From positions 1 through 40,077 of the forward strand of contig SKYU01000055.1 in NCBI GenBank assembly GCA_007127715.1: a stretch of DNA of 40,077 nt, read 5' to 3'. The position numbers and the translations under genes are program-made. The notes beneath the pieces were generated by a model, which was not told the origin of the DNA, searched no databases, and was given only the letters and a program-made list of their open reading frames with translations. Of this stretch, positions 37,857-40,077 are shown one piece after another; the stretch's first letter is position 1, and every line of letters begins with the position of its first letter. The DNA comes from Gammaproteobacteria bacterium. Lineage in GTDB: Bacteria > Pseudomonadota > Gammaproteobacteria > Steroidobacterales > PWYM01.

Positions 37857-37893
37857 ACACCCGGATGTCCGTCGGACATCCGGGTGTTTTTTT
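37857..37893 (+). terminator. Rho-independent terminator of TonB receptor 3
   Basis: Perfect 14-bp stem ACACCCGGATGTCC - GTC - GGACATCCGGGTGT followed by a T-tract. Confidence 0.93.
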
Positions 37894-37922: not shown

Positions 37923-38498
37923 TCAGGGTGCAAACGGCGGCTGGATCCAGAGTGCGGACTTCGCGATCAGCGCGCCCAGCAGCGCTCCCACGAACACGTC
38001 GGTCGGATAATGCAGCCCGAGGATGACACGCGAGGCAGCCACCAGCAGCGCAAAAGGCACGAGCACGATCGCCAGCACCGGAAACCATGCGACCGCCAGC
38101 GTCGTGAACAGCACCGCGTGCAGCGTGTGACCGCTCGGAAAACTGTAACGATCAAGCGGTGGGGTCGCGCAGACGATGCCAGCATGGGAGACAAAGGGAC
38201 GCTCGCGGACCAGACGCCGCTTGAGACCCGCATAGACCGCAACGCCAAGCAGCGCGGCCAGCCCCATCTGCAGGGCGGCGACACGTCCGGCGGGTCCCAG
38301 GCCCACTGCGCACGCGGCCATCAGCATATACCAGAACACGCCGTCGCCCAGACGACTGACCACGGCAAACAGGCGACGTACGCCCGGGTGGCGGGCCAGC
38401 GCGTTGATCCGCAGACACAGCTGCTGCTCGAGCGTGTCGCAGACCTCCAACGCGCGAGGCGGGCGGGTTCTCGAACCTGTGATGGCCATGGGCTTCAT
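37923..38498 (-). CDS. PAP2 superfamily phosphatase (membrane)
   Basis: All three PAP2 motifs intact: KRRLVRERP (Kx6RP), FPSGHT (PSGH), SRVILGLHYPTD (SRx5Hx3D). Confidence 0.92.
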   Translation of the reverse strand: MKPMAITGSRTRPPRALEVCDTLEQQLCLRINALARHPGVRRLFAVVSRLGDGVFWYMLMAACAVGLGPAGRVAALQMGLAALLGVAVYAGLKRRLVRERPFVSHAGIVCATPPLDRYSFPSGHTLHAVLFTTLAVAWFPVLAIVLVPFALLVAASRVILGLHYPTDVFVGALLGALIAKSALWIQPPFAP

Positions 38499-38521
38499 GC
38501 ACTGTAGTGTCGCGGCGCGTC

Positions 38522-38561
38522 AAGACAGCACGATTGCAGTTCGCTGACAGTTGCATGAAAC
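38522..38561 (-). promoter_or_regulatory. Candidate PhoB-binding array facing the PAP2 gene (four half-sites, 11-bp pitch)
   Basis: Minus strand: GTTTCAT-GCAA-CTGTCAG-CGAA-CTGCAAT-CGTG-CTGTCTT; unit edges at 38555, 38544, 38533, 38522. Confidence 0.65.
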
Positions 38562-38595
38562 CTCGCGGTCCGGCACTGACCTCCAGCCACAGGCG

Positions 38596-38635
38596 CGGTC
38601 ACATGGCTGTCACAAGGCTGAAAGACGGCGGTAAC
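38596..38635 (+). promoter_or_regulatory. Candidate PhoB-binding array facing the GT4 gene (four half-sites, 11-bp pitch)
   Basis: Plus strand: CGGTCAC-ATGG-CTGTCAC-AAGG-CTGAAAG-ACGG-CGGTAAC; unit starts at 38596, 38607, 38618, 38629. Confidence 0.7.
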
Positions 38636-38657
38636 CTCGCGCAGGCTCAATGCGGCC

Positions 38658-39731
38658 ATGCGAATCGCCATCTGTACCGATGCGTGGCAACCCCAGGTCA
38701 ACGGCGTGGTCACCACCCTCGGCCATACCCGCACCCAGCTCGAGGCCTTCGGTCACGAGGTGGCGGTGTTCTCGCCGGGCAGCGGCTTCCGGACGGTGCC
38801 CCTCCCCGGTTACCCGGAGATCCGCCTGCCGCTGAGCCCGGGGGGGCGGATGGCGGACCTGCTGGCGGCCTTCGCCCCGGAGTGCGTACATATCGCCACC
38901 GAGGGCCCCATCGGGTGGGCTGCACGACGCTGGTGCCTGCGCAACGGACAGCCGTTCACCACCTCCTACCACACGCAGTTCCCCGAGTACCTCCGCGCAC
39001 GGCTGCCCGTGCCCGAGCGACTGAGTTATTCGCTGTTGAGACGTTTTCACCGGCCGGCGGTACGCACACTGGTGCCGACCGAGCAGGTGAGACGGAAACT
39101 GGCCGCACAGGGGTTCGAGCGGCTGGTGCTGTGGACGCGGGGCGTGGACACCGGGGTCTTCCATCCGGACCACCCCGCCCCGCCAGCGCTCGAACTGCCC
39201 AGGCCGCTATGGGTTTGCGCCGGCCGGGTGGCCGTCGAGAAAAACCTCGAGGCCTTCCTCTCCCTGGAGCTGCCCGGAAGCAAGATCATCATCGGTGACG
39301 GGCCCGCACGCGCCAGCCTGCAGCAACGCCACCCGGGGGCATATTTCGCCGGTTACCGCTTTGGCGAGGAACTCGCGGCCTGGCTGTCGGCCTGCGACGT
39401 CTTTGTATTCCCCAGCCGGACAGACACTTTCGGCCTGGTGATGCTCGAGGCGATGGCCTGCGGGCTGCCGGTGGCCGCCTACCCCGTCAACGGCCCGATC
39501 GACGTCATCCGCCCGGGGGTGAGCGGGGTGTTGGACGAAGACCTTCGAAAAGCCTGTCTCGCGGCACTGACGCTCGAGCGCCCGGCGGTTCGCAGGGAAG
39601 CCTGTCGCTACAGTTGGGAGGCGGCGGCGCGGCAGTTCGAAGCCGCCCTCGTCCCGGGTGATGCCGCCGATCCGGATGGCGACCCGGCAGACGGATCGCC
39701 CACGCGGACCATCGACCCCGCGCTGCGCTGA
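38658..39731 (+). CDS. Family 4-type (GT-B) glycosyltransferase, candidate glycolipid synthase
   Basis: RIAICTDAWQPQVNGVVTTL N-terminal motif; PSRTDTFGLVMLEAMACGLPVAAYPVNGPIDVI C-terminal retaining GT4 motif, as in MgtA/PimB/SQD2-like lipid glycosyltransferases. Confidence 0.9.
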   Translation: MRIAICTDAWQPQVNGVVTTLGHTRTQLEAFGHEVAVFSPGSGFRTVPLPGYPEIRLPLSPGGRMADLLAAFAPECVHIATEGPIGWAARRWCLRNGQPFTTSYHTQFPEYLRARLPVPERLSYSLLRRFHRPAVRTLVPTEQVRRKLAAQGFERLVLWTRGVDTGVFHPDHPAPPALELPRPLWVCAGRVAVEKNLEAFLSLELPGSKIIIGDGPARASLQQRHPGAYFAGYRFGEELAAWLSACDVFVFPSRTDTFGLVMLEAMACGLPVAAYPVNGPIDVIRPGVSGVLDEDLRKACLAALTLERPAVRREACRYSWEAAARQFEAALVPGDAADPDGDPADGSPTRTIDPALR

Positions 39732-39997: not shown

Positions 39998-40077
39998 ATG
40001 AAATTCCGTAGTATTACGCCCGTGGCCATGGCCGTGACCCTGGCCCTTGGTGCACCCGCCATCGCCCAGGACGCCCC
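39998..40077 (+). CDS. N-terminus of a secreted or outer-membrane protein (truncated by window end)
   Basis: ATG at 39998, signal peptide MKFRSITPVAMAVTLALGAPAIAQDA running off the window. Confidence 0.7.
   Translation, partial: MKFRSITPVAMAVTLALGAPAIAQDA

Follow-up and report, generated by a model that had tools for sequence, protein, structure and literature searches.

The Divergent Gene Pair and Its Shared Intergenic Gap

The window considered here (the whole stretch of 40,077 nucleotides that was analysed) carries, close to one end, a divergent gene pair, one gene encoding a membrane lipid phosphatase of the PAP2 superfamily and the other a GT4 glycosyltransferase, for both of which the reading frames given in an earlier note on this DNA held. 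The features are as follows:

37857 to 37887, no strand assigned: likely terminator, a perfect 15-bp inverted repeat plus a T-run (repeat search of the sequence)
37923 to 38498, minus strand: PAP2-superfamily membrane lipid phosphatase gene, 191 aa (PF01569 match)
38522 to 38561, minus strand: four-heptamer Pho-box array facing PAP2, with its first unit at -63
38596 to 38635, plus strand: four-heptamer Pho-box array facing GT4, with its first unit at -62
38658 to 39731, plus strand: GT4 glycosyltransferase gene of the Agt clade, 357 aa (Pfam GT4 domains, tree)

The likely terminator separates the PAP2 gene from a convergent TonB-dependent receptor gene, and, downstream of the GT4 gene, the contig end cuts the start of a secreted-protein-like open reading frame (ATGAAATTCCGTAGT...) at 39999-40077.

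The 159-bp gap between the two genes (38499-38657) carries both arrays, each consisting of CTGTCAT-like heptamers with 11-bp spacing. On the PAP2 side the minus strand reads GTTTCAT.CTGTCAG.CTGCAAT.CTGTCTT (22/28 matches), and on the GT4 side the plus strand reads CGGTCAC.CTGTCAC.CTGAAAG.CGGTAAC (also 22/28 matches). The two arrays rank top among four-unit sites across the 40-kb window, and none of 2,000 dinucleotide shuffles attained the score of either, in support of the earlier description of the pair as flanking two Pho-like arrays. Congeners with proteins of approximately 80% identity keep the distance from array to gene on both sides of the gap. Tandem 7-bp repeats with 11-bp spacing, along with phoB and phoR in the genome, are the features by which a Pho regulon is recognised, and both are present here, with the binding of PhoB being predicted.

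Identity of the Two Proteins

The PAP2 protein matches PF01569 at 72 bits (cut-off 27) and possesses the features that define the superfamily, namely the motifs KX6RP (in KRRLVRERP), PSGH (in FPSGHTLHA) and SRX5HX3D (in SRVILGLHYPTD) within a multi-helix membrane protein, the predicted structure (pLDDT 91.9) comprising six long helices. All three catalytic motifs are thus intact, as had been proposed, and they are invariant across 18 aligned sequences. This is the sole PAP2 protein above the Pfam cut-off in its genome, an assembly of 2.78 Mb in 217 contigs that is 90% complete. Dephosphorylation of undecaprenyl-PP and of PGP are the usual housekeeping roles of PAP2 proteins, and as the genome also encodes BacA (for undecaprenyl-PP) and PgpA (for PGP), its sole PAP2 must be dispensable for these steps. 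We know of no member of this PAP2 subfamily with an established activity.

The glycosyltransferase possesses two Pfam GT4 domains (PF13439, 80 bits; PF13692, 77 bits), and its predicted structure (pLDDT 90) has the GT-B fold, as in MshA, BshA, PimA, and PimB. In a maximum-likelihood tree it groups with plcP-adjacent proteins, with support of 100/99, and it is approximately 52-60% identical to plcP-linked homologues. When 80 GT4 relatives were taken from named genomes and their plcP neighbors were tallied by eye, 47 of the 80 loci also carried, within the stretch, a gene for a PlcP-like metallophosphoesterase, nearly always adjoining the GT4 gene. Because the protein falls in a clade whose members usually adjoin plcP, it is by descent an Agt-type diacylglycerol glycosyltransferase, of predicted activity, an identity based on its linkage to plcP and on gene order as published rather than on characterised Agt sequences. 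An Agt-like lipid glycosyltransferase is in line with the reading of the earlier note.

Linkage of PAP2 to GT4 and plcP

Among 69 genomes of the order, GT4 and PAP2 co-occur in 13 (Fisher p=3e-4; p=0.003 without own genus), and GT4 and plcP in 15 (p=3e-9). So as to avoid the bias of a GT4-based starting point, Gammaproteobacteria were also sampled by PAP2, which is encoded, at E<=1e-30, in 38 of 275 genomes. In 35 of 37 neighborhoods (all except our own and that of genome G010, tallied by eye) the PAP2 gene is directly beside a gene for a GT4-family glycosyltransferase or beside plcP, and the PAP2 and GT4 reading frames frequently overlap. The glycosyltransferase partners fall into three GT4 groups in the tree. 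The arrangements include PAP2 divergent from GT4, PAP2 divergent from plcP-GT4, and operons of the order PAP2-plcP-GT4 or GT4-plcP-PAP2. Large phosphate-starvation clusters are present at loci L024 (2474-11701), L042, and L195, where phoR-phoB-porin-PAP2 is divergent from plcP-agt-GT-ppk1 (the last encoding polyphosphate kinase), PhoR, PhoB, and Ppk1 of L024 all exceeding curated cut-offs; the porin in these clusters is of the O/P type, and the second GT4 is Mgs-like. Another observation concerns Acinetobacter CP035931.1 (L171, 3657-5531), in which a family-1 glycosyltransferase gene lies directly 5' of a PAP2 gene whose product is 41% identical to the window protein, a tandem that recurs in many Gammaproteobacteria; the Acinetobacter case came from plasmid-collection records, which offered no annotation of function.

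The three genes do not always occur together. Numerous genomes encode GT4 and plcP but not such a PAP2, which, therefore, is not required. As to the opposite case, 36 genomes in the sample of the class encode the PAP2, and for 10 of them no plcP appears at E<=1e-15. Some apparent absences of plcP reflect incomplete metagenome assemblies, and we give weight to near-complete genomes alone. A near-complete genome, G015 (99% complete), is without plcP, and the boxes of its divergent PAP2-GT4 pair are the strongest. One of the 10, G257, was considered as a natural replacement of PlcP by PAP2 and was rejected: by comparison with its sister cluster L195, its locus (L199, 4880-5490) has a deletion of plcP, the Pho boxes, and the PAP2 N-terminus, with a truncated PAP2 frame persisting beside agt, and, as the locus is damaged, it was left out as such a case.

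Pho Boxes Upstream of the Linked Genes

The upstream 200 bp of genes were scored for three units versus the published CTGTCAT consensus, untuned, with 578 control reading frames drawn from the same loci. A score of at least 16 was reached by 64% of linked PAP2 genes (n=22) versus 1% of the controls (n=578). For GT4 as the first gene of a unit the respective number was 23%, and for GT4 inside plcP-GT4 operons it was 2%; the latter genes, expected to have no promoter, represent an internal negative control, and they behaved as one. Of the plcP leaders, 19% scored at least 16 and 78% at least 14, the latter versus 7% of controls. In the PAP2-centered set, 12 of 13 unit-leading PAP2 genes scored at least 14, and the operons of the third GT4 group were enriched as well (28% at 16 or above). 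The arrays, their conserved positions, and this enrichment all point to Pho-type control of both genes, as predicted earlier. With the box positions kept within the genus and the linkage of PAP2 to GT4 or plcP recurring beyond it, the window pair is a Pho-linked, conserved unit, and the earlier note was right about the pair and about its likely theme.

plcP and the Pho Regulators in the Same Genome

One part of that proposal was a PlcP-independent route, based on the window alone. While it is true that no plcP is present within the 40 kb, the genome does encode a clear plcP, on a contig other than that of the pair (C186:8988-9803), and for this organism the proposal therefore fails; as a proposed extra route it survives, given the near-complete relatives, G015 and others, in which PAP2 and GT4 occur without plcP. 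The gene on C186 is related to the plcP genes neighboring agt elsewhere and is distinct from LpxH, scoring 42-46 bits on LpxH models (cut-offs 134-190), while the genuine LpxH, encoded at a separate locus, scores 292-302 bits. A Pho-like box of modest score (TTGTCAT.AGTTCAC.ATGCAAC) is located upstream of it at -90, and such a box is found at -88/-89 in three congeners. In three congeners, as in the window's genome, plcP and agt are not adjacent but on different contigs. As the published adjacency of the two genes is common but not universal (PMC4796936), this separation is compatible with membership in the PlcP-Agt system.

A phoB-phoR-phoU set is present on contig C192, with PhoB, identified by profile, exceeding its curated cut-off and PhoR and PhoU beside it identified from sequence. 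A second, PhoB-like response regulator is encoded divergently from plcP on C186 (locus L090, 8067-8774, minus strand), scoring 235 bits on the PhoB model (cut-off 296), and it adjoins plcP in three congeners too, at 60-85% identity. It may be a plcP-specific regulator, the canonical PhoB being encoded on another contig.

Proposed Role of the Pair

Taken together, the pair probably takes part in replacing phospholipids by sugar lipids under phosphate scarcity. The analysis shows the gene identities (by homology), the arrays, the presence of plcP and phoBRU, and the conserved linkage of PAP2 to GT4 or plcP, and we suggest that the pair represents a PhoB-controlled lipid-remodelling unit with two diacylglycerol feeds, PlcP and PAP2, and we would place the probability of this reading at roughly 0.55. 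In phosphate starvation PhoB, whose binding we infer, would occupy both arrays and switch on PAP2, GT4, and the remote plcP. Agt would then transfer a sugar from a UDP-sugar, probably glucose or glucuronic acid, to diacylglycerol, resulting in a phosphorus-free glycolipid, with both the sugar and the acceptor suggested by the literature on Agt. One feed would be provided by PlcP, cutting existing phospholipids to diacylglycerol, and the other by PAP2, dephosphorylating phosphatidic acid made de novo, with the phosphate returned. The substrate of PAP2 is, above all, the element that we infer: from its linkage to GT4 and plcP, the protein most likely converts phosphatidic acid to diacylglycerol.

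Such a function would fit a gap in the supply of diacylglycerol: a plcP mutant retains residual GADG, from which its authors inferred a PlcP-independent supply (PMC8528852), and diacylglycerol is stated to require either phosphatidate dephosphorylation or a phospholipase C (PlcP), the model strains of that study being without the former (PMC4796936). A broader proposal, which we offer tentatively and at somewhat short of even odds, is that a Pho-controlled PAP2 subfamily, a near-constant companion of lipid GT4 proteins across Gammaproteobacteria, serves as the PlcP-independent source of diacylglycerol in phosphate-starvation lipid remodelling. In most species it would act alongside PlcP, and in some it would be the only partner of the glycosyltransferase.

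Other roles of the PAP2 protein have to be weighed against these. Since LpxE presents the closest solved structure, the main rival is a role in lipid A modification: PAP2 would be an LpxE-like lipid A 1-phosphatase, or some other envelope lipid phosphatase of the Pho regulon, scavenging phosphate or reducing surface charge, and Agt would be merely co-regulated. LpxE, which acts on lipid A 1-phosphate, is the top match of the PAP2 model by fold (6ebu, TM 0.73/0.84, followed by PgpB-type phosphatases) as well as by profile (61.6 bits), and the small size of the protein, without the periplasmic insertion of PgpB, would also agree with such a role. Structure comparison gave no decision on the substrate. 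However, the identity is about 27%, and mere co-regulation is at odds with the tight linkage described above (35 of 37 neighborhoods, counting plcP, often with overlapping genes), which suggests a shared substrate or product beyond a shared regulon. We consider this rival a live one, though rather unlikely.

It is more doubtful still that PAP2 acts on C55-PP or PGP, with GT4 making a polysaccharide or a glycosyl-phospholipid, as weak NCBIfam matches could suggest (SepP, PgpB, and YbjG types for PAP2; N-acetylglucosaminyl-PG synthase for GT4). These matches are all far below curated cut-offs, including those of PAP2 on the undecaprenyl-diphosphatase and PgpB models; also against this reading, BacA and PgpA are present, GT4 clusters with plcP-linked Agt proteins, and there were no polysaccharide genes seen among the reading frames adjoining the pair. 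The version put forward in the earlier note, of PAP2 as the sole source of diacylglycerol in this organism, replacing PlcP, could draw on the window being devoid of plcP and on the near-complete genomes such as G015, but it is refuted for this genome by the plcP on C186, with its Pho-like box at a position kept in the genus and with LpxH encoded separately, unless this plcP is inactive, and we regard it as highly improbable.

Comparison with Known Systems

Among known phosphatases, PgpB of E. coli, which hydrolyses PGP, PA, and C55-PP in vitro (PMC3599759), and YodM of B. subtilis share the PAP2 catalytic motifs with the window protein, but they are 20-24% identical to it in fold alignment, and it scores far under the NCBIfam cut-off. 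LpxE of Aquifex aeolicus is likewise a small membrane phosphatase, the closest both in solved fold and in sequence, but distant in the latter, as discussed above. For the cyanobacterial and plastid phosphatidate phosphatases of the PAP2 type (LPP), a role in supplying the synthesis of glycolipids has been put forward (Nakamura, 2007, as cited in PMC4796936 and PMC3599759): in both cases a PAP2 fold is proposed to convert phosphatidic acid to diacylglycerol for glycolipids, while the organism group and the regulation differ, the likeness being one of proposed function and the activity of the window protein being predicted.

The system most directly comparable is the PlcP-Agt remodelling pathway, with its agt and plcP gene order (PMC4796936; PMC8528852; PMC9239053), examples being those of Phaeobacter MED193, SAR11 HTCC7211, Pseudomonas aeruginosa (PA3219-PA3218), and Methylosinus OB3b. 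These papers regard PlcP as the main source of diacylglycerol, and a PAP2 partner is not mentioned in their main texts; nor was a paper uniting plcP, agt, and PAP2 found in the open-licence literature, which is weak evidence of novelty. A concrete candidate for a second supply of diacylglycerol is thus at hand in a Pho-controlled PAP2 whose gene is tightly linked to those for Agt, PlcP, and related glycosyltransferases, and, if this is true, PAP2 would become a third marker gene for spotting lipid remodelling in genomic and metagenomic data, also where plcP is lacking. This phosphatase looks like a widespread yet undescribed partner, one that could furnish the lipid backbone. As in the known pathway, the window's genome possesses an Agt-clade GT4, plcP, Pho boxes, and phoBR; unlike in the known pathway, its agt is unlinked from plcP and is divergent from a Pho-linked PAP2. 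The glycosyltransferase half of the pair thus belongs to the known PlcP-Agt system, and the PAP2 partner is the apparently new part.
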